Below the pieces are notes generated by a model that saw only the letters and a program-made list of their open reading frames with translations, was not told the origin of the DNA and searched no databases. Shown piece by piece: positions 11,996-39,333 of a stretch of DNA of 47,566 bases. Position numbers and translations under genes: made by a program. This stretch comes from Micromonospora sp. CPCC 205371 (GTDB lineage: Bacteria; Actinomycetota; Actinomycetes; Mycobacteriales; Micromonosporaceae). Numbering within the stretch: the first letter of the stretch is position 1; each line of letters begins with the position of its first letter. The stretch is taken from the NCBI RefSeq assembly GCF_026130045.1, contig NZ_JAIBNX010000041.1, positions 1 through 47,566 on the forward strand. Direction: 5' to 3'.

Positions 11996-12562
11996 GTGCC
12001 GGCGGCGAAGGCTGACCGGACGGACGAGCACGCCACGCCGCCGAAGCAGCCCGAGCCGGTCAGCCGCATCAGGTGGTACGCCCAGTACGGCAACAGATGG
12101 AACGAGTGGTCGCGGCCGAGACGAGCTGCTGCGGTCGCCGCGGTCCTGGCAACCTGCGTCGTCGGCGTACTCGTCATCGTGGCGCTGACGAGCGCATCCG
12201 AAGGAGATGCCGAGGGTGGACACGCAGGCTCTGCTCCGTCAGCTTCGGCGTCGCCACGGGTCTGGTGGACCCGGATTACGGGCACGTACTCGGCGCAGAC
12301 CGGAAAGAAGATGGGCGTACGGACTTTCAAAGGCCCTAATAACTCGGAGCTCTACGGCCCAGGCTACGACGAAGGCACGCCTGTACCAATCGTATGCCAA
12401 GAGCGTCACGGAGAAGAAAGAACTGACCCTACCAGTGGGAAATCATCCGCCGTGTGGAATAAAACACAGGACGACCATTGGTTCCCGGACCTCTATTCGG
12501 ATCTGCCGAAGGTGTCTGGCGATAAGCCACCCCAAGGTATACCAATCTGTCCGAGGTCATAG
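11996..12562 (+). CDS. single-TM protein, probably C-terminal half of the HTH gene
   Basis: 188 residues from a GTG at 11996, in the same frame as the preceding HTH gene and without its own ribosome site. A Pro/charged linker (about 1-40, with RIRWYAQYGNRWNEWSRPRR) leads to a TM helix at about 43-65 (AAAVAAVLATCVVGVLVIVALT). A Ser/Ala linker and an extracellular domain follow (about 95-188), with TYSAQTGKKMGVRTFKGPN, GTPVPIVCQE and a final HWFPDLYSDLP. The pattern of YG-GYDEGTPVPIVCQ resembles the SH3-like domains found in other actinobacterial surface proteins. It lacks an independent start signal, which supports the single-gene reading. Confidence 0.55.
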   Translation: MPAAKADRTDEHATPPKQPEPVSRIRWYAQYGNRWNEWSRPRRAAAVAAVLATCVVGVLVIVALTSASEGDAEGGHAGSAPSASASPRVWWTRITGTYSAQTGKKMGVRTFKGPNNSELYGPGYDEGTPVPIVCQERHGEERTDPTSGKSSAVWNKTQDDHWFPDLYSDLPKVSGDKPPQGIPICPRS

Positions 12563-13327
12563 CCCACCTCGCAACATAAAGCCGACAGGCTACCGTCGTT
12601 CTTTGGGCCCGCGTAAAGGCCAGCGCAACCGTTGGTCCGTCCAGCGATCGACAGGCAGCCGCAGCGGGTAACCGGCGGCCCACAAGCATGAGCCCCCCTT
12701 CCGTCAGGGCCGCGTGCGCCACAACCCAAACGACGAACCAAAGGAACGCGACACCTTCAGCGACCACAGCCACCTTTCACGTCGTATCAAGGCCACCACG
12801 CCAACGCAAAATCCCCAGCATCATCGAGCGCACTCATTTCGGGCATTTGAGTGACTTCAGAGGAGCGACCTGACCGGTCTTTGCGGTTGACGACGCAGCT
12901 CCGCCAACGCCCGCGCTGCCCCGCGTGCAGACCGATGCCCCGATCATCGGTCCGCACAGCGTCCACGCCACCCCTCCGGACAGAAGCCAACGAGACTCCC
13001 GGCAACGATCTCGCAAGCATGGACTTACGAGACGAATCAGGCGCCCGGCGGTGGCAGCGGCCACGTGCCGTCCAGCACCACAATCGTCGGATCACCGCCG
13101 GTCGTCCCGCGTTCCCATGTTGGACGGGATCCGCCTCCACTCCACACCTGCGCGCCTGCCCCGCGTCTGTGCGCTGACCAGGGATTTCTTCACCAGCCCG
13201 AAGCACTCCAGCGACCCTGGAGAGCCGGCCGAGGGGCTTCGCACCTGCGCTGGACTGAGCCTTCGGAGCAAACCGCGGTCAACGAGCATCTTCGCCGCCC
13301 GCCTATCGGGGCTCGCCGCGCGGCGGC
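12563..13327. other. gene-poor stretch with a minus-strand gene remnant
   Basis: About 765 bases with no intact gene. On the minus strand, 13037-13175 reads VWSGGGSRPTWERG then PTIVVLDGTWPLPPPGA-stop. This matches a similar short tail at 21642-21848 and is listed separately. The remainder shows nothing. Confidence 0.4.
13037..13175 (-). pseudogene. C-terminal remnant with DGTWPLPP tail
   Basis: The minus-strand frame ending at 13037 reads QVWSGGGSRPTWERGTTGG, then DPTIVVLDGTWPLPPPGA and a stop. The tail is shared with 21642-21848 (GGSRTTWERAATSGD then VVLDGTWPLPPRGM), which gives two diverged copies of one gene end in this island. No start or upstream part can be followed without changing frame. 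The family is unknown to me. Confidence 0.4.
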
Positions 13328-22264: not shown

Positions 22265-23863
22265 ATGGCTTCAAGAGTAAAGAAGCTTGGATTTGCCTTC
22301 CTTGCGGTCACGTTGGCCTCTGTCGGATTTGGATCCGGCGTGACGATTCGGGCATCGGCCGACGTCGTGGCTCAGGTAAGCGCTTCGCAGCTTGTTGCCG
22401 ACATGGGCGCGGGCTGGAATCTGGGAAACTCGCTGGAAGCCAACATCAACGGAATCCCGAGCGAAACGTCATGGGGCAACCCGGTCGTTACGCAGGCTCT
22501 TATCGACAGGGTGAAGGCGGCGGGGTTCAAAACGATCCGCATCCCGGTCTCCTATTTGGGACATATAGGTTCCGGCCCTAATTACACGGTGAATTCTTCC
22601 TGGCTGAACAGAATCCAAGAGGTAGTCAACTACGCCTATAACCGAGGCCTGTACGTGCTGATCAACATGCATGGAGACGGCTACAAGACTATCTCCGGCT
22701 CCTGGCTGATCTGCGATTCATCCTCTCAAACAACGATCAGGGACAAGTATCAGAAGGTCTGGCAACAGATCGCGACCAGGTTCCAAAGCTACGATGAGCA
22801 CCTGATCTTCGAATCCATGAACGAGAACTTCGACGGGCAATATGGTCGTCCGACCCAACCATGCTATTCAAACATCAACGCCTACAACCAGATCTTCGTG
22901 GACACCGTACGAAGAACTGGCGGGAACAACAGTTCAAGATGGCTGCTCATCCCCGGTTGGAACACTAACATCGACTACACCACGGGAAACTACGGCTTCG
23001 TGCTTCCGACCGACCAATATCGGTCTCCCTCCATCCCCAGCAATGAACAGCGGATCATGATCTCCGTTCACTACTACGACCCGTGGGACTTCACCGGCGA
23101 AGAAAACAGCACCATCACGCAATGGGGGCCGGCAGCGACCAATCCGTCAAGGAAGTCGACCTGGGGACAGCAAGACTATATGGACGCGCAGTTGAAGAAG
23201 ATGTACGACACCTTCGTCGTGCGGGGATACCCGGTATTCGTCGGTGAATACGGTTCGATCGACAAGACCACGTTTGATTCGTCGAACAACAGGTATCGTG
23301 CGGACTTCGCGCGCACCCTGGTGGCCTCTGCCAAGAAGTACGGAGCGGCCACCGCTTATTGGGACAACGGCGTAAACGGGCAGTACGGGTTCGGGCTGTT
23401 CAACCGAGGCTCCGCTACGGTGACCCAACAAGGCATTATCGACGCCATCATGAGCGCCATCGGTGTCAGCGGATCGACGACCCGCTACGAGGCGGAAACG
23501 ACGCCGGCCGTCTGCACCGGCACCATCGACTCCAACTGGTCGGGCTACTCAGGTACCGGATTCTGCAACGGCAACAACGCGGTCGGCGCCCACGCTCAGT
23601 TCACGGTCAACGCGAGCACGGCGGGCACGGCGACGCTGCGGGTCCGGTTCGCCAACGGTGTCACGACCGCGCGGCCGGCTTCGCTGATCGTCAACGGCTC
23701 GACGGTGCAGACCCCGTCGTTCGAAGGCACCGGGGCATGGACCACGTGGGTCACCAAGACCTTGACCGCCACACTGAACGCGGGCAGCAACACCATCCGG
23801 TTCAACCCCACGACGGCCAACGGCCTACCCAACATCGACCACCTCGAAGTCACGACCTCATAG
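22265..23863 (+). CDS. secreted GH5 endoglucanase with C-terminal CBM
   Basis: 532 residues. The ATG at 22265 has AGAGGAAA at 22251-22258; upstream residues of the longer frame are not coding. The signal peptide is residues 1-34 (MASRVKKLGFAFLAVTLASV, then an ASA-type cleavage site). GH5 catalytic domain, about 40-395: GWNLGNSLEA, KTIRIPVSY, LINMHGDGY, acid/base Glu187 in FESMNENFD, SVHYYDPWDF, and nucleophile Glu328 in FVGEYGS. The overall pattern is closest to GH5 subfamily 4 endoglucanases. Residues about 405-532 form a CBM35/CBM6-type beta-sandwich (YEAETTPAVCTGT, FANGVTTARPASLIVNG, IDHLEV). The enzyme cuts beta-1,4-glucan or related hemicellulose outside the cell. The catalytic half is visibly lower in GC than the CBM half, which is a sign of mosaic origin. 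Confidence 0.95.
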   Translation: MASRVKKLGFAFLAVTLASVGFGSGVTIRASADVVAQVSASQLVADMGAGWNLGNSLEANINGIPSETSWGNPVVTQALIDRVKAAGFKTIRIPVSYLGHIGSGPNYTVNSSWLNRIQEVVNYAYNRGLYVLINMHGDGYKTISGSWLICDSSSQTTIRDKYQKVWQQIATRFQSYDEHLIFESMNENFDGQYGRPTQPCYSNINAYNQIFVDTVRRTGGNNSSRWLLIPGWNTNIDYTTGNYGFVLPTDQYRSPSIPSNEQRIMISVHYYDPWDFTGEENSTITQWGPAATNPSRKSTWGQQDYMDAQLKKMYDTFVVRGYPVFVGEYGSIDKTTFDSSNNRYRADFARTLVASAKKYGAATAYWDNGVNGQYGFGLFNRGSATVTQQGIIDAIMSAIGVSGSTTRYEAETTPAVCTGTIDSNWSGYSGTGFCNGNNAVGAHAQFTVNASTAGTATLRVRFANGVTTARPASLIVNGSTVQTPSFEGTGAWTTWVTKTLTATLNAGSNTIRFNPTTANGLPNIDHLEVTTS

Positions 23864-32599: not shown

Positions 32600-34030
32600 T
32601 CAGAGGCCGATGCTCGCCTGCGGGCCGGTGTAGGTCCGCAGCAGGCTTGGCACGTCCGCGGCGGGTGTGAGCGTGTACGAGTAGAAGCTGCTCGGGTTGA
32701 ACGCGGAACCCTTCGAGGTGACCTTGCCGGAGTCCCACGGGCTGTTGACGGTGATGTTGCCGCGCTGCACGAGTTCGCCCGCCTCGACGTAGTACGGGTT
32801 GCGGACGTTCTCGAAGTAGCTGTTCTCGATTACCGCCTTGGTCAGGCCGCGCACGTAGTTGCCGTACGCTTCGCAGTTCTGCAGGTAGTTGTTGTAGAAG
32901 TGCGCGTACGCGATGTTGTCCGCGCTGGGGTTGCGGGTCCGGGTGTTCTGGAACCAGTTGTGGTGGATGGTCATCCGGGCGGTGACGTTCTCGGTCCAGC
33001 CGATGCCGAAGGTCTTGTTGTTTTCGACCAGGTGGTTCCAGGACACGGTCAGGTTGGTGGTGTCCTTTCGGCTGTCGATGAGGCCGTCGTTCATTCTGGA
33101 CAGTCGATTGTGGTCGATCCAGATGCGGTTGGCGGTGTCCATCTGGATGGCGTCGTAGTCGTACGCGTCGTCACCCGGGTCGTCGTCGGGCATCAGCGTG
33201 TCGCGGATGGTCAGGTTGCGGATGATGACGTTGCTGACCCCGGCCGCGAGGAAGAAGCCGCCGCCGACGATGTGCCCGCTGGTGCCGACGCCGATGATCG
33301 TCTTGTTGGACGCCACGCGCAGTTCGGTGCCCTTGGGGCTGATGTTGATGGTGCCGGCGACCCGGATGACGTACGGGGCGCTCGCGGTCACGTACTGGTT
33401 GAGCGCCGCCTGCGTCGTGACGGTGACAGTCTGACCGCCGGCTCCGCCGGTGGTGCCCTGCGCGAACCCGTCGGGCACATTCGAGTACGGCGCGGCAGAA
33501 CCGCCTATCTTGTGTAGCATCCACTGCTGGTTGGTGCCGTCGGTGTCGGTGTACTGCGAGATCCGCCCACCGTCGGCCGTGGACCACTCCCACACATCCA
33601 GCGCCTTGCCACTGTGCCGATTAATCAACTGGATGTGACCGTCCGGCGAGTCCGTGACCCCAAAGTGCTGCTTCGTATCACCGCTAGCCGCCTGCTGGGT
33701 CAGCTGCGCACCATCCTGAGCCGACGCGATCTGCAACACCTTGCCACTGAGCCGCGACTTGATCTGGTAGTAGCCGCCGCCGACGGACACGAACTGCCAC
33801 TGCTGCTGATTGCCGTTGTTACGTGCCCACTGCACGATCGGCGCACCATCGTTCGTCGCCAGGTTGTACACGTCGATCGCCTTACCACTGTGCCGCGACG
33901 TCAGCACGTAATAGACCGACGTGTCGATCGTCGCCGCCAGCGACGGCGACGCCGACACCACCACGACCGCGGACGGCACCGTCATCGCCACCACTGCGAG
34001 TGGCAGCCAGCGCCTGAGTTTCTTCATCAT
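32600..34030 (-). CDS. secreted pectate lyase (PL1) with N-terminal ricin lectin domain
   Basis: 476 residues; AAAGG lies about 9 nt before the ATG at 34030. Signal peptide 1-32 (MMKKLRRWLPLAVVAMTVPS, cleavage at SLAA). Ricin-type beta-trefoil about 33-172 with HSGKAIDVYN, QQQWQFV, QHFGV and NQQWML repeats: a carbohydrate-binding module. PL1 domain about 185-476: IIGVGTSGHIVGGGF, YDAIQMDTANRIWIDHN, LTVSWNHLVENNKTFGIGW, TIHHNWFQNTRTRNPS. The RNP is the likely catalytic Arg region, with Asp residues for Ca2+ in YDAIQMD and DGLIDS. The enzyme splits pectate by beta-elimination outside the cell. It follows the pectin methylesterase gene by 28 bp; the two enzymes act one after the other. Confidence 0.96.
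   Translation of the reverse strand: MMKKLRRWLPLAVVAMTVPSAVVVVSASPSLAATIDTSVYYVLTSRHSGKAIDVYNLATNDGAPIVQWARNNGNQQQWQFVSVGGGYYQIKSRLSGKVLQIASAQDGAQLTQQAASGDTKQHFGVTDSPDGHIQLINRHSGKALDVWEWSTADGGRISQYTDTDGTNQQWMLHKIGGSAAPYSNVPDGFAQGTTGGAGGQTVTVTTQAALNQYVTASAPYVIRVAGTINISPKGTELRVASNKTIIGVGTSGHIVGGGFFLAAGVSNVIIRNLTIRDTLMPDDDPGDDAYDYDAIQMDTANRIWIDHNRLSRMNDGLIDSRKDTTNLTVSWNHLVENNKTFGIGWTENVTARMTIHHNWFQNTRTRNPSADNIAYAHFYNNYLQNCEAYGNYVRGLTKAVIENSYFENVRNPYYVEAGELVQRGNITVNSPWDSGKVTSKGSAFNPSSFYSYTLTPAADVPSLLRTYTGPQASIGL
33478..34025. repeat. duplicated ricin-domain cassette, copy A
   Basis: The DNA coding the leader end and the whole lectin domain of the pectate lyase is nearly base-for-base the same as that of the methylesterase (about 34973-35520). 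It includes silent positions, for example in the stretch coding QLINRHSGKALDVWEWST. This is a recent duplication or gene conversion. The catalytic parts downstream are unrelated. Confidence 0.85.
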
Positions 34031-34058: not shown

Positions 34059-35525
34059 TCAGCCGACCGGGTTCCAGCCATCCGAGCCGGCGAGGTACTT
34101 CTGGGGCGTGTAGTTGGGCGCGTCGGCGTCGGTGAGCTGAGGCCGGTTGCTGTTCGTGCCGGCGCCGGCGCCGTTGTTGCGGTACTCGCGGAAGCGCGCG
34201 TTCTGCCACGTGTTCGACGACATGTTGGTCCACGGCTGTGCGGTGTTGATGTGCGCGCCGAGGGTGGATTCGCGGTACAGCACCTGTGCGTCCGGACCCC
34301 ACGGGCGGCCGAGGCTGCTGGAGTTCGCGGCCGCCGAGCTGGTCAGGTTGCACCGGTAGAACAGGAAGCCGTACGCCCGCGTGGCCGGTGTGCGCGCCGC
34401 GGTGAGAGGGCCACCGGTCGAGCGCTTCTCGTGGATCTGCGAGCTGTGCATGACGGCGATGCCGTCGCCGAAGATGAAGTCGACGGTGCCCTCGATGTAG
34501 GAGTTGCGCACGTACGACCGGGCGGTCGCCCCAACGAGGAAGGTGTCCTGGTCGCCGAGCAGCCGGACGTTGGTCAGGATCGACCGGTCCGAGTTGAGAT
34601 ACAGCGCCACCGCCTGGTGGCCCGGCTGGCTGGCGTTGGCCACCTCGTCGAAGTCGTTGGAGATGGTCAGGTTGCTGGCTTGGAAGCCACGGCCGGTCAC
34701 CGTGGCGGTGGCGCTGCCGTTGGTGCCATACGTCGTGCCGTCAGGCTTGAGGGTGCCGGCCGAGTGGTTCTCGACGAGCACGACGCTGGACGGGTCGGCG
34801 CCGAGGCCGAGCAGGTGCAGGTTCGTCTTGCTCGACGGGACGGAGAACACGCCCCGGTAGGTGCCCGGCCTGATCGCGATGGTGACGGTGGTGGCGCTGT
34901 TGGTGGGTGCGGCGTTGATGGCGGCTTGCACGGTGGTGTGCTGCCCGCTGCCGTCGGCGGCGACGACGATCGAACCGGCGGGCGGGGTGCCGGACCCGCT
35001 TATCTTGTGTAGCATCCACTGCTGGTTGGTGCCGTCGGTGTCCGTGTACTGCGAGATCCGCCCACCGTCGGCCGTGGACCACTCCCACACATCCAGCGCC
35101 TTGCCACTGTGCCGATTAATCAACTGGATGTGACCGTCCGGCGAGTCCGTGACCCCAAAGTGCTGCTTCGTATCACCGCTAGCCGCCTGCTGGGTCAGCT
35201 GCGCACCATCCTGAGCCGACGCGATCTGCAACACCTTGCCACTGAGCCGCGACTTGATCTGGTAGTAGCCGCCGCCGACGGACACGAACTGCCACTGCTG
35301 CTGATTGCCGTTGTTACGTGCCCACTGCACGATCGGCGCACCATCGTTCGTCGCCAGGTTGTACACGTCGATCGCCTTACCACTGTGCCGCGACGTCAGC
35401 ACGTAATAGACCGACGTGTCGATCGTCGCCGCCAGCGACGGCGACGCCGACACCACCACGACCGCGGACGGCACCGCGAAGGCCGCGATTGTGAGCGGCA
35501 ACCAGCGCCTGAGGTGTTTGACCAT
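34059..35525 (-). CDS. secreted pectin methylesterase (CE8) with N-terminal ricin lectin domain
   Basis: 488 residues from the ATG at 35525 with AAAGG upstream. Signal peptide about 1-32 (MVKHLRRWLPLTIAAFAVPS). The ricin-type trefoil at about 33-172 is almost identical to that of the next gene, at both protein and DNA level. CE8 beta-helix about 185-488: TTVQAAINAAP, RPGTYRGVFSVPSSKTNLHLLGLG, QAVALYLNSDRSILTNVRLLGDQDTFLV with the first catalytic Asp, GTVDFIFGDG with the nucleophile Asp, and SLGRPWGPDAQVLYRES with the substrate Arg. It removes methyl groups from pectin, making it a substrate for the pectate lyase. It is first gene of a two-gene operon and lies divergently from the sigma/beta-helix gene, with a 207-bp shared promoter region. 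Confidence 0.96.
   Translation of the reverse strand: MVKHLRRWLPLTIAAFAVPSAVVVVSASPSLAATIDTSVYYVLTSRHSGKAIDVYNLATNDGAPIVQWARNNGNQQQWQFVSVGGGYYQIKSRLSGKVLQIASAQDGAQLTQQAASGDTKQHFGVTDSPDGHIQLINRHSGKALDVWEWSTADGGRISQYTDTDGTNQQWMLHKISGSGTPPAGSIVVAADGSGQHTTVQAAINAAPTNSATTVTIAIRPGTYRGVFSVPSSKTNLHLLGLGADPSSVVLVENHSAGTLKPDGTTYGTNGSATATVTGRGFQASNLTISNDFDEVANASQPGHQAVALYLNSDRSILTNVRLLGDQDTFLVGATARSYVRNSYIEGTVDFIFGDGIAVMHSSQIHEKRSTGGPLTAARTPATRAYGFLFYRCNLTSSAAANSSSLGRPWGPDAQVLYRESTLGAHINTAQPWTNMSSNTWQNARFREYRNNGAGAGTNSNRPQLTDADAPNYTPQKYLAGSDGWNPVG
34973..35520. repeat. duplicated ricin-domain cassette, copy B
   Basis: Partner of the cassette at 33478-34025. Differences cluster in the signal peptide (AVVAMTVP against TIAAFAVP) and in the linker after the lectin domain. 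Confidence 0.85.
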
Positions 35526-35732
35526 CAGAGGACCTTTCGAGGCGGTTACTGTGAGCGAGCACTGTCGATGGAGCTGTCGGCAGCACTCTGGTAGATGCAC
35601 GGCGCCCACCAGGGATAACCGAAAATGCTGAAAGAAATTTGGCGCGCTGCGCCTACCAGCGACGACTCATCACAGAGATGACCTTCTTTACAGACAGGCA
35701 TCGCTGTGCGACTATCGGCAACGGTGGACGCG
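35526..35732. promoter_or_regulatory. divergent promoter region of the pectin locus
   Basis: 207 bases between the minus-strand esterase/lyase operon and the plus-strand sigma/beta-helix gene. The centre (about 35608-35640) is AT-rich (GGATAACCGAAAATGC then GAAAGAAATTT), unlike its surroundings. It contains an AAC triplet of the kind found in ECF -35 elements. I cannot fix exact -35/-10 boxes. Confidence 0.4.
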
Positions 35733-37895
35733 ATGATGACGCACAGTGAGGCACTCGACGTCACCGTGCTCGTACGCGCCGCACAGGCGGGGAGCCGCGA
35801 CGCGCTCAACGAGCTCGTCGCCGCGCATCTTCCGGTCATCTACAACGTCATCAGCCGCGCGCTCAACGGGCACACCGACGTCGACGACGTCGTGCAGGAG
35901 ACGATGGTCCGGATCATCGGTGGCCTGCCGGGGCTGCGCGATCCCGACCGGTTCCGCTCCTGGGCGGTGACCATCGCATACCGGCAGCTCCACCTGTACC
36001 TGCGCAACCGCCGCAAGACCATGGTCCGGGTCGAGCAGGCGCCACCGGACGTGCCCGACCCGGGTGGCGACTTCGCCGAGCAGACAGTCACCGCCCTGGT
36101 GCTCAGCGGGCAACGGCACGAGCTGGCCGAGGCCGTCCGGTGGCTGGAAGACGCCGACCGCCAGCTATTGGCGCTCTGGTGGCAGGAGGCGGCCGGCGAG
36201 CTGACCCGCGCGGAGCTCGCTACCGCACTCGACGTCAAGCCGAAGCACGCGGCCGTGCGCGTGCGGCGCCTGCGCGAACGGCTCGACGCGGCGCGCGGCG
36301 TCGTGCGCGCGCTGCGAGCCCGGCCGCGCTGCGCCAAACTCGCCGGCCTCCTCCAGGGCTGGAACGGCGTCGCCGACCCGCTGTGGCGCAAGCGGCTAAT
36401 CCGGCACACCCGCGACTGTCCACAATGCACCCCCTACCGGCACGGCCTCGCCTCGCTCGAAGACCTCGCCCTCGGCGCGACCGCGCTGCCGGTACCGGTG
36501 GCGGTCGTCGAAGGCTTACGGATCGCCGTCGAGGCCGGCGGCCCGGTGACCCAGGCAGTGCCGTCGCTGCTGGCGCAGCTCCAAAGCATCGTCCAGAACA
36601 AGCTCGCCGTGACGGCGGCGGCCACCGCCGTCGCCAGCGGGGGTTTCGTGTACGCGGTCTACCACGAGCCCGCGCCTCCCCCGGCGGGTGCGACAGCCAC
36701 CGTGAGCCCGACAGCGGCTACCCGGACGCTGGTGCCCCAACCACCCGCCCTCGCGGCGAGCCCCACGACGGCCGCGACTCCGACGTCCGTGCCGGCGGCC
36801 TTCAGCGGTGTTGCCGTCGCCGACGTGTACGTGGCCGCGAACGGGTCGGACGCCGGCGACGGAAGCCTGGGACGGCCGTACGCGACCCTCGCGAAAGCGG
36901 CCGCGGTGGTGCGGCCAGGGCAGACCATCGCGCTCCGGGGCGGCACGTACCGCCCGACCGAGCCGGTCACCATCGACACGAGCGGCACCCCGGAGCGCCG
37001 GATCACGCTCAGCAACTACCGCGACGAGCGCCCGGTCATCGACGCCAGCCAAGTGCCGGCGGAGCACTGGACCGTGACCCACCGCGGCGGATACTGGACG
37101 GTGCAGGGCCTGGAGATCAAGAACTCCCGCAGCCACGCGTACGTGTGCCTCTCCTGCCGCGGCAACGCCTTCCGCCGGCTGTCCATTCACGACAATGTCC
37201 GGTCGGGGCTGACCCTTCGCGATCCGGGCACCGTGGACAACCAGGTACTCGACAGCGACTTCTACCGCAACTACGACCCCGCCGACCAGGGGCGTTCCGG
37301 CGTGGGCCTGGCCATCAAGTTCGGCGCGGGCACCAGAAACGTGGTGCGCGGCTGCCGCGCCTTCGACAACGCCGACTCAGGGTTCGACCTCGGTGAGTTC
37401 GCCGGCGCAGTCCGCCTCGAATACAACTGGGCGTACGGCAACGGCGTCAACCGCTGGAACGCGCCGGACTGGCAGAGCAACGCAGACGGTTTCCACCTGG
37501 GCGGCACCCCTCCGGCAGCCCACGTGTTGCGGCACAACGCCTCCTGGGCCAACGCGGGCAACGGCTTCAGCGACGGTGGAAACTCGGGGCGGCTGGAGCT
37601 GAGCAACAACACGGCATTCCGCAACGGTGCCGCCGGGTTCCATCTGCCCACCGCGGCGGCGACCGTACGCGCCAACGCCTCCATCGACAACGCCAGCGCG
37701 GCAGAGCTGGGCAGCGGCGCCCAGTCCAGCCGCAACACGTGGGACGGCGGCGCATTTCCGGCCAGCGCGTTCGAGTCGACCGATCCCACCGGCGCGCAGG
37801 GGCCGCGGCGCCCCGACGGCCGGCTCCCCGCGACCGACTTCCTCACCACCGGCCGGGGTGTCGGCGCCTCTATGCACGAGCCAGGTACTTCTTGA
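35733..37895 (+). CDS. membrane-bound ECF sigma factor fused to extracellular PL9-like beta-helix
   Basis: 720 residues from the ATG at 35733 (35736 also possible). Sigma region 2, about 10-95: NVISRALNGHTDVDDVVQETMVRI, FRSWAVTIAYRQLHLYLRNRR. Region 4, about 140-195: LLALWWQEAAGELTRAELATALDVK, AAVRVRRLRERL. Next an anti-sigma zinc motif HxxxCxxC (RHTRDCPQC, about 225-235) and an acidic/hydrophobic linker. One TM helix lies at about 289-308 (LAVTAAATAVASGGFVYAVY), then a Pro/Thr-rich spacer. From about 363 to 700 there is a right-handed beta-helix close to pectate lyase family 9: VYVAANGSDAGDGSLGRPY, CRAFDNADSGFDLGEF, NWAYGNG, DGFHLGG, HNASWANAGNGFSDGG. The PL9 motif GFKLGG reads GFHLGG here (His588), and DDGWD reads DSGFD, so it probably binds rather than cuts pectin. 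I infer a one-component pectin sensor. Confidence 0.9.
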   Translation: MMTHSEALDVTVLVRAAQAGSRDALNELVAAHLPVIYNVISRALNGHTDVDDVVQETMVRIIGGLPGLRDPDRFRSWAVTIAYRQLHLYLRNRRKTMVRVEQAPPDVPDPGGDFAEQTVTALVLSGQRHELAEAVRWLEDADRQLLALWWQEAAGELTRAELATALDVKPKHAAVRVRRLRERLDAARGVVRALRARPRCAKLAGLLQGWNGVADPLWRKRLIRHTRDCPQCTPYRHGLASLEDLALGATALPVPVAVVEGLRIAVEAGGPVTQAVPSLLAQLQSIVQNKLAVTAAATAVASGGFVYAVYHEPAPPPAGATATVSPTAATRTLVPQPPALAASPTTAATPTSVPAAFSGVAVADVYVAANGSDAGDGSLGRPYATLAKAAAVVRPGQTIALRGGTYRPTEPVTIDTSGTPERRITLSNYRDERPVIDASQVPAEHWTVTHRGGYWTVQGLEIKNSRSHAYVCLSCRGNAFRRLSIHDNVRSGLTLRDPGTVDNQVLDSDFYRNYDPADQGRSGVGLAIKFGAGTRNVVRGCRAFDNADSGFDLGEFAGAVRLEYNWAYGNGVNRWNAPDWQSNADGFHLGGTPPAAHVLRHNASWANAGNGFSDGGNSGRLELSNNTAFRNGAAGFHLPTAAATVRANASIDNASAAELGSGAQSSRNTWDGGAFPASAFESTDPTGAQGPRRPDGRLPATDFLTTGRGVGASMHEPGTS

Positions 37896-39147
37896 TGCAG
37901 TGCACCGAGCCAAGGTTTTCCGCGAACGGGTGGAAGTCGGTGAGGTACACGACCTCGTAGCCGAGCCCGGCCCAGATCCGGCCATTGGCTTCGTCGGTGG
38001 CGGCGAGCTCCGGCCACACCCCGTGCCCGTAGGTCGGCAGGTAGACGACACCGTCGCTGACGAGGGCGTTGTTGGCGGTAGCGAAATACCACCACCGCTC
38101 ACGCCGGTCAGGGTCGTCGACGTACACGAGTGGCAGCGGGTTGCGCACCACGTCGAAGCCCTGCCGGACCAGGCCCGCCGCGATGTCGTCGAACACCTCG
38201 GGCATGGCGTGCGCGGGCGTCGGCACGCCGAGCACCTCGGCCGCCGCCCGTGGGTCGCCGACGAGCACCCGGTATCGCCCGTCGTCACCACGGCCGGCGA
38301 GCGTCACCAGCATGTCTATGTGGAAGACCGGCTGGGTCGTGCCGGGCTGGTTGCCCGCGTACAGGACCTCCGTCCACTCCGCACCGTCCAGAGTGAACCG
38401 TCTGGCGCGCTGCTCCGGCACCGGCAGCGTGCTGCCGACATAGATGAGCCGCCGGTCAGGATCGAGGTATTCGCCGTAGAGCCGCCGCACCAGGTCTGCC
38501 GGCCGCTCCCCCGGCTCGGGCACGAGGATGCCGCCGACATACCGCAGCGTGTTGGCCGGATAGTCGGCGCCGATGAGGAAGAAGTCGTCGCCGATCAGGA
38601 GGTTGCCGCCCTGGAAGTACAGCGGAGCCTGGGTGCGCTCCAGGGCCGGATCGGCGTTGGCCACGAGATCTGCGACCAGGCTGTCCCCGTACCGGGGAAA
38701 AGAGAACGGCTCGACGAAGTAGGTCGTGCCCGCGTCGACGACCACGACGTAGCCGTCTTCCGCCCACACGCTGAAGTTGATGTGATCCGGCCCGGCCACG
38801 ACGTCGATCCGATCGCTCCACCCGGCCACCGTTTCGGCGGCTGACTCGTGCGTCAACACGAGGAAGCGCGTCTGCGCCGGCAGCTTGGCCAGCAGGTCTT
38901 GGTAGGCGGCCTCGATCGGCGGCGAGTGGACCGCGTACGCCGGGATCGTGAACAGCATCCGGGTGACGGGGCCGCCCGCCGAGGCCACCAGACTTGGCCG
39001 CTCCGGCCGGGGCGGCAGCAGGTCGGCGATGATCGGGCCGGCCTGGGCCCGGACGCGCCGCGACTCCACGGACAGATCGCCGGTGTACCGGCGCACGAGT
39101 GCCGGCGGCGTAGCGTAGTGCCGCGGCCGCACCGAAGCCTCCACCAT
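37870..39147 (-). CDS. agmatine/arginine deiminase-like (guanidine-modifying enzyme) protein
   Basis: 425 residues from the ATG at 39147. Features of the five-bladed alpha/beta propeller of guanidine-modifying enzymes are visible: the WAEDGYVVVVD strand with Asp, FQGGNLLIGDDFFLIGAD, then FHIDMLVTLAG with a His-x-Asp pair. The C-terminal block NNALVSDGVVYLPTYG, GYEVVYLTDFHPFAENLGSVHC places the catalytic Cys in VHCIKKYL. This is the order of agmatine deiminase and peptidyl-arginine-deiminase homologues. The substrate cannot be told. No signal peptide is convincing, so it is probably cytosolic. Its last 26 nt overlap the end of the convergent sigma/beta-helix gene, so no terminator separates them. 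Confidence 0.8.
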   Translation of the reverse strand: MVEASVRPRHYATPPALVRRYTGDLSVESRRVRAQAGPIIADLLPPRPERPSLVASAGGPVTRMLFTIPAYAVHSPPIEAAYQDLLAKLPAQTRFLVLTHESAAETVAGWSDRIDVVAGPDHINFSVWAEDGYVVVVDAGTTYFVEPFSFPRYGDSLVADLVANADPALERTQAPLYFQGGNLLIGDDFFLIGADYPANTLRYVGGILVPEPGERPADLVRRLYGEYLDPDRRLIYVGSTLPVPEQRARRFTLDGAEWTEVLYAGNQPGTTQPVFHIDMLVTLAGRGDDGRYRVLVGDPRAAAEVLGVPTPAHAMPEVFDDIAAGLVRQGFDVVRNPLPLVYVDDPDRRERWWYFATANNALVSDGVVYLPTYGHGVWPELAATDEANGRIWAGLGYEVVYLTDFHPFAENLGSVHCIKKYLARA

Positions 39148-39333
39148 GGACTCAGGGTAGCCGCTACCGCCACTCAAGGTTGCCGTCGCGCGGGCCCGCT
39201 CTCTTGATCGAGGCGGAGGCCGACCCGGTGGCGTCCGGGCGAGCGCTCTGGCGCGGCCGACACCGCTATGCCGTGGTTTTCGGGTCGGTCTCCGACACGC
39301 TGGAGGCCGCCGCGATGATCATCAGCTCCGCGA

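Follow-up and report, generated by a model that had tools for sequence, protein, structure and literature searches.

A sigma factor joined to a degenerate pectate-lyase-like outer domain in Micromonospora: a candidate single-protein pectin sensor

The subject of this report is a gene at positions 35733 to 37895 of contig NZ_JAIBNX010000041.1 of Micromonospora sp. CPCC 205371, whose full 47,566 nucleotides were analysed and are referred to here as the window (contig C346 of genome G000). On the forward strand, a frame of 720 residues runs open without stops and joins an extracytoplasmic function (ECF) sigma factor to a segment of the zinc anti-sigma type, a probable transmembrane (TM) helix, a linker and a right-handed beta-helix like that of the pectate lyases of family PL9. 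A preliminary description of the sequence had proposed this architecture, and the single frame, the Pfam and 1RU4 matches and the cysteine motif bear it out. The parts are as follows, with confidence in the structure model given as predicted local distance difference test (pLDDT) values.

35733-37895, + strand: whole fusion gene (ECF sigma factor, anti-sigma segment, TM helix, linker, PL9-like beta-helix); order of parts kept in 41 fusion proteins
35814-36017, + strand: sigma region 2, residues 28-95 (PF04542, E 5.4e-13)
36123-36293, + strand: sigma region 4, about residues 131-187, borders estimated (TIGR02937 over residues 23-184, E 1.4e-20; helices of the model)
36405-36428, + strand: HxxxCxxC motif of the zinc anti-sigma type, HTRDCPQC, residues 225-232 (in 41/41 fusion proteins)
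36600-36659, + strand: probable single TM helix, about residues 290-309 (hydropathy peak, alignment conservation, K290 invariant in 32 aligned sequences)
36669-36803, + strand: Pro/Ala/Thr-rich linker, about residues 313-357, presumed extracellular (sequence, low pLDDT, Pro-rich in homologues)
36804-37844, + strand: PL9-like right-handed beta-helix with degenerate active site, residues 358-704 (1RU4, E 1.4e-41; Foldseek; pLDDT mostly >90)

A Pfam search of the fusion protein gave no match of its own for region 4. Among the NCBIfam models, TIGR02937 scored above its curated cut-off and PelN below its own, and together with PF04542 and Foldseek matches to sigmaE (1or7) these results place sigma regions 2 and 4 in the protein without a region 3, which is the arrangement of ECF sigma factors. 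In the segment that follows, H225, C229 and C232 are invariant columns of the 32 aligned sequences; because Pfam returned no zinc-finger match there, the putative zinc anti-sigma domain rests on the HxxxCxxC motif. The motif and the hydropathy peak downstream of it, both C-terminal to the sigma factor, are the arrangement of the fused ECF groups. The peak covers residues 291-309, with a 19-residue mean of 1.67, close to the TM helix that had been proposed at 289-308. Many relatives carry a hydrophobic stretch directly after HxxxCxxC. A second TM helix was considered for it and set aside, and we tentatively assign the stretch to the anti-sigma segment, because it contains a PVP-like stretch and a sugar-binding domain is expected outside. 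An AlphaFold2 model built with the 32 aligned sequences has a mean pLDDT of 84.5 and is confident in the sigma and beta-helix parts, with pLDDT below 50 over residues 286-355, which hold the TM helix and linker.

The nearest structure to the outer domain is Pel9A (1RU4), which is matched in sequence over residues 358-704 and is also the top Foldseek match of the model (E 1.2e-18). The Pel9A-like beta-helix model PF22842 matches residues 363-599 (E 4.1e-14). By sequence and fold homology, the domain thus belongs to PL9. All fusion rows that extend over residues 472-475 of the beta-helix (positions 37146-37157) have a CxxC there, which in fusions is often a second HxxxCxxC; only part of the stand-alone PL9 proteins have a CxxC. 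The motif is possibly a disulfide or a metal site.

In Pel9A, calcium is bound at Asp209, Asp233 and Asp237, and Lys273 is the base, according to the accessible part of a review (PMC10992409). An offset of +25 from Pel9A numbering to chain positions, derived from the 1RU4 alignment, fits all four residues, and the corresponding positions of the fusion protein are as follows.

37302-37304, + strand: Val524 at the position of calcium ligand Asp209 (alignment)
37374-37388, + strand: Asp548-Ser549-Gly-Phe-Asp552, with ligands Asp233 and Asp237 kept and Asp234 changed to Ser
37494-37496, + strand: His588 in place of the catalytic base Lys273 (1RU4 alignment; GFKLGG reads GFHLGG)

The outer domain therefore lacks the catalytic Lys and one of the three calcium ligands of a PL9 enzyme. 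The alignment with Pel9A puts His588 in the Lys column, as first proposed from the GFHLGG motif; the loss of Asp209 had been overlooked. A further change, read initially as DDGWD to DSGFD, is real in the form DDGFD to DSGFD, and the altered Asp234 is not among the calcium ligands listed in the part of the review seen (PMC10992409). His588 was also considered as a conserved alternative base and rejected, as the position varies in the clade of the window (H, V, S, A, T, N or R).

In order to place the protein, we searched for relatives in 61 genomes and in one genome-contig scan, from which the best 80 of 554 related stretches were taken. The preliminary description had suggested a search for other fusions of an ECF sigma factor, TM helix and beta-helix, and at least 41 distinct proteins of this architecture, including that of the window, were found in Micromonosporaceae, Kineosporia, Parafrankia, Streptomyces, Saccharothrix and two metagenome bins, the placement of host genera in families being general taxonomic knowledge. 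In two of them (L100 and L102) the PL9 part is truncated or has a gap. Of 39 scorable fusions, 35 have lost at least one of Asp209, Asp233, Asp237 and Lys273, versus none of 36 scorable stand-alone PL9 proteins. The latter comprise 19 proteins, left from 21 initial rows when a split paralogue with residues lost and a gapped row were omitted, and 17 added later; against the first 19, the Fisher test gives p 9e-12, with relatedness ignored. In a tree of 59 PL9 domains, made before the 17 later proteins, 40 fused rows form one clade with support 100/99. Within it, different branches have lost different residues: Asp209 and Lys273 in every row of the window's own subclade (n = 19) and, elsewhere, Asp237 and Lys273, Asp233 (to Gly), or Asp237 alone. 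The genome of the window holds further ECF relatives and a second PL9 fusion that is apparently split between contigs C250 and C148, with the break in the Pro/Ala-rich linker.

The genes divergent from the fusion encode pectin-degrading enzymes. Pfam matches and gene calls agree with the earlier reading of a divergent pectin methylesterase and pectate lyase operon.

34059-35525, - strand: pectinesterase (CE8) with ricin-B lectin, divergent neighbour (PF01095, 4.4e-47)
32600-34030, - strand: PL1 pectate lyase with ricin-B lectin, following the CE8 gene on that strand (PF00544, 3.6e-20)
35590-35620, - strand: promoter-like element GGTTATC-N17-ATCTACC, directed toward the CE8-PL1 operon (conserved two-block word)

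This linkage is a feature of the family. A CE8, PL1, PL3 or PL9 gene lies at most four genes from the fusion in 39 of 42 loci versus 0 of 40 control loci, counts that treat related genomes as independent; the controls are ECF fusions of the same kin whose outer domain is of another type, mostly from Streptomyces. CE8 lies within four called genes in 35/42 loci and PL1 in 28/42, and one or the other is the immediate divergent neighbour in 26/42. Other pectinases at fusion loci are PL3 at L054, stand-alone PL9 at L078 and L086, and PL1 at L100. The three loci lacking a pectinase are L058 and L087, which have GDSL esterases with CBM2, and L098, which meets a contig edge on one side. CE8 is present in 7/7 fusion genomes versus 5/54 other genomes. 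The window's PL1 and CE8 proteins have near-identical signal-peptide and ricin-B lectin parts (some 170 residues, judged by eye), a likeness that points to a recent event between the two neighbours, either duplication or gene conversion.

The element in the intergenic region has the consensus TGTTRTC-N16/17-RTCTAC and reads into the pectinase operon. Enumeration of two-block words found words common to up to 7 of 18 loci of the window's subclade and at most 3 in shuffled sequence, and similar blocks occur in the intact and Streptomyces branches. With a weight matrix built on 16 sites, we scanned about 11 kb (6.5-11.3 kb) around each of the 42 fusions, using 20 shuffles per locus. At 24/42 loci, the best match beats 20/20 shuffles and precedes the first gene of the pectinase operon, 81-251 bp from the called start (the start is miscalled at L107). 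Ten of these 24 are outside the training set (L057, L060, L082, L085, L090, L097, L101, L103, L104 and L105). Five Catellatospora loci have the operon on the downstream side of the fusion, and there the element sits between the fusion and CE8; by sequence, the element follows the pectinase operon where the operon moves. At L055, L058 and L099 the best match beats the shuffles and lies elsewhere than before a pectinase operon. The split second fusion in the window's own genome has no good element match.

We also scanned 29 genomes for the exact pattern: a group of ten, chosen for a fusion or a sensor-less relative, and 19 others. In the group of ten, nine have the ECF gene and G003 has neither; G004 has a fusion and no exact match. 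The group holds 14 matches, of which ten have a pectinase downstream (CE8, PL1, PL3 or PL9 by tblastn; L152, L183, L184, L188, L189, L193, L194, L195, L199 and L200). L191 precedes a CBM2 protein that we read as PL1-like, Pfam having given CBM2 alone, and L182 and L190 lie at fusion loci and face no pectinase; the remaining match is L153, in the window's own genome. The 19 genomes without the ECF gene hold ten matches, none with a pectinase within 1.5 kb. Away from ECF loci, the comparison is 5/6 matches before a pectinase versus 0/10 (Fisher p 0.0014), one of the five being 10 kb from a fusion. Unlinked genes that carry the element are a CE8 gene in G034 and PL9 genes in G001, G002 and G005. 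Among 22 CE8 loci away from fusions, the only strong match is L159, in G034. G034 and G001 are the two among the seven fusion genomes that have no CE8 beside the fusion; PL3 lies beside the fusion of G001, in which the element precedes neither of two CE8 genes. In 1.5-kb windows before CE8, 4/6 fusion-adjacent CE8 loci score low (L161, L162, L163 and L167), in part because PL1 or a different gene comes first in the operons there.

ECF relatives with other outer domains extend the picture. The non-PL9 relatives carry CAP (17/55), AbfB (8/55) or Glyco_hydro_cc (7/55) domains. At four of the five AbfB-type loci listed (L123, L129, L139 and L146), an AbfB protein is divergent at position -1 or -2; the neighbour listing of the fifth, L133, where the domain scan was not run, contains no AbfB protein. 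Given this and the PL9-biased pectinase linkage, which enzymes are encoded next door tends to be predictable from the outer domain. The Glyco_hydro_cc domains, which we take to be of the GH128 type, keep the NEPD and TE(F/Y) motifs in 7/7 cases (L035, L036, L041, L043, L053, L147 and L150), and both Glu motifs are presumably catalytic. A general rule that the enzyme-like outer domains of this family are dead is therefore rejected. At 16 loci (for example L004, L005, L115 and L143), there is a common outer domain with no Pfam match, and nine of these have a divergent neighbour from one cluster, whose representative is a beta-lactamase-family protein.

Two further genes of the window are recorded here. 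A gene at 37870-39177 is convergent with the fusion, overlaps its 3' end by 26 bp and has weak matches to peptidyl-arginine deiminase below the cut-off. A GH5 cellulase with a CBM6/35-type module is encoded at 22340-23863.

Taken together, these data suggest that the fusion senses external pectin and turns on the neighbouring pectin-degrading genes, and we consider it probable that the family consists of single-protein transmembrane pectin sensors, most of which carry a pseudo-lyase outside. The preliminary description had proposed a sensor that binds pectin and does not cut it, a proposal that gains support, at the level of sequence, from the loss of active-site residues in fusions only, the conserved pectinase neighbourhood and the element that tracks pectinases. 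Binding of pectin by the outer PL9-like domain would lead to release of the sigma part, probably through site-1 and intramembrane proteolysis, with the HxxxCxxC segment as the putative anti-sigma part, and the freed sigma factor would drive the divergent CE8-PL1 operon from TGTTRTC-N16/17-RTCTAC.

Several observations weigh against this interpretation, and they are given here with the alternatives that they bear on. The first alternative is that the PL9 domain is a mere cell-surface anchor or spacer and that the sigma factor answers another input, such as a protein partner or envelope stress. Pectin binding, like proteolysis and transcription from the element, is a step that we infer, and the TM helix is drawn from hydropathy and conservation in a part of the model of low confidence. 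Two loops near the active-site motifs are absent in up to 13/19 rows (68%) of the window's subclade, so that these loop-less relatives may not bind the polymer in the manner of the enzyme; the fusion of the window has both loops. In two Phytohabitans relatives, the sigma gene and its PL3 neighbour are kept and the TM and PL9 parts are lost (L061:7315-8178 in G005 and L062:6855-7838 in G002); a short PL9-like remnant is still present in G002. Moreover, two ECF relatives with another, uncharacterised outer domain, both outside the control set, are divergent from CE8: one in the window's own genome (L019:10168-11964 and 12265-13311, G000:C148) and one at G004:C1 8920931-8923481. Pectinase linkage is therefore not exclusive to the PL9 type, and the relatedness of the genomes behind the linkage counts is to be borne in mind. 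Against an anchor stand the strong bias of pectinase linkage to the PL9 type over the controls and the parallel in the AbfB-type loci, and we regard this alternative as unlikely.

A second alternative is that the element is read by a different sigma factor or bound by another regulator, and that the fusion has other targets. A weak element or none is seen in 15/42 loci: at L056, L089, L093 and L102 it is well placed yet within shuffle noise, and at 11/42 the weight-matrix scan found no convincing element, including L086 and also L095, whose best match, about 1 kb before PL1, is equalled by 1/20 shuffles. The strong elements at L055:10410 and L058:7410 lie upstream of the fusion and face no pectinase, and are perhaps relics of a moved operon. 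A second exact copy in the window's own genome (L153, G000:C459:15277-15305) has no pectinase near it and is unexplained. No copy was found in the 420 bp before the fusions themselves at up to two mismatches, and autoregulation through the same element was rejected on that ground. One weak candidate, L086:6833, reads into its own fusion with 1/20 shuffles as good, and there autoregulation is possible. In the window's clade there are also conserved bases after the -10-like block, and other sites may therefore overlap. Against a different reader stands the fact that the element before pectinases tracks genomes with the ECF gene, and that its two blocks are 16-17 bp apart, as is usual in ECF promoters. 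Overall, we judge a different reader of the element to be quite improbable.

The third alternative holds that the outer domain has stayed an active enzyme, a lyase displayed on the membrane that uses His588 or another base and either senses its product or acts as enzyme and regulator in one. The fold and two calcium ligands are kept, all four residues are intact in 4/39 scorable fusions (L031, L051, L084 and L085), and the related GH128-type domains retain their presumed catalytic motifs. Lys273 is lost in 23/39 scorable fusions and kept in 16/39; Lys loss, supposed at first from the window, thus holds there and is not universal, and the architecture does not depend on a loss of catalysis. However, in the window's clade the base position shows no conserved substitute and Asp209 is lost in 19/19 rows, and stand-alone PL9 proteins keep the four residues in 36/36 cases, so that we give an active enzyme in the window very little credence. 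Finally, an artefact in which two genes or a pseudogene are read as one, a split that the preliminary description had raised, is dismissed, since 40 further fusion proteins from many genera show the same single frame, the sigma and beta-helix parts are confident in the model and nothing was found in its favour.

With the pectin-sensor reading preferred, a history can be proposed to which we give about even chances. An ECF-anti-sigma fusion would have captured a pectate lyase on a single occasion, and the catalytic machinery would then have decayed along several routes (Asp209 and Lys273; Asp237 and Lys273; Asp233 to Gly; Asp237 to Gly). The result would be a gradient, with intact enzyme-sensors at one end and pseudoenzyme receptors at the other, in control of a pectinase regulon by way of a single conserved promoter. 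Among actinobacterial ECF proteins more broadly, outer domain and enzyme would be matched in a modular way, for example in the AbfB type beside AbfB genes. The family lends itself, as a natural series, to the question of when an enzyme turns into a receptor, and it offers a candidate pectin-responsive promoter together with its sigma factor in one gene for actinomycete engineering.

The principle is already known, given fused ECF-anti-sigma proteins with predicted carbohydrate domains and the RsgI precedents. ECF48, ECF52 and ECF53 proteins have fused anti-sigma and TM parts (PMC8999054, as far as the accessible text goes), and some ECF52/53 proteins have predicted glycoside hydrolase (GH) or carbohydrate-binding domains, for which the accessible part of PMC10766802 gives no experimental validation. 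Like these groups and like SCO4117 of Streptomyces coelicolor, the fusion combines an ECF sigma factor, a zinc anti-sigma segment, a TM helix, a Pro-rich linker and an extracellular carbohydrate-type domain in one actinobacterial protein, a likeness of architecture drawn from partial texts (PMC8999054, PMC10766802, PMC5826349). SCO4117 differs in its role, which by the same partial account lies in secondary metabolism and differentiation. In Pseudomonas putida, IutY (ECF243) is likewise a sigma factor fused to its own membrane anti-sigma part and is released by proteolysis; it differs in that its signal is a siderophore, and a carbohydrate domain is not part of its description in the portion of the source consulted (PMC8999054). 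In fold and homology, the outer domain resembles Pel9A (1RU4) and the rhamnogalacturonan lyase 5OLQ, from which the fusion differs in lacking the catalytic Lys and Asp209 and in being joined to a sigma factor.

The nearest functional parallel is SigI/RsgI of Clostridium thermocellum, in which an extracellular carbohydrate module or weakened enzyme is connected through one TM helix to a sigma factor and to matching enzymes (PMC4711584, PMC12203970, in the parts available). RsgI6 carries a GH10 that binds despite very low activity, and RsgI3 has PA14 and binds pectin, according to the available part of PMC4711584. SigI/RsgI differs in consisting of two proteins in Firmicutes, in a SigI that is not an ECF sigma factor with sigma4, and in the use of PA14 and not PL9 for pectin; the fusion has no separate RsgI and no SigI-C domain, being one polypeptide of ECF type by Pfam and NCBIfam. 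A search of titles and abstracts in the open-licence literature, with some ECF classification papers outside its coverage, found no report of an ECF sigma factor fused to a pectate lyase. As far as this literature goes, what is new is the PL9 pseudoenzyme, the several ways in which its active-site residues were lost, and the promoter and regulon predicted for it. For one-protein sigma switches whose carbohydrate domains are otherwise predictions (PMC10766802, as available), the fusion supplies concrete candidates for ligand, promoter and regulon, and relative to ECF52/53 as described in those accessible texts, a PL domain, a degenerate site and a predicted matching pectinase regulon are found in the fusion only.

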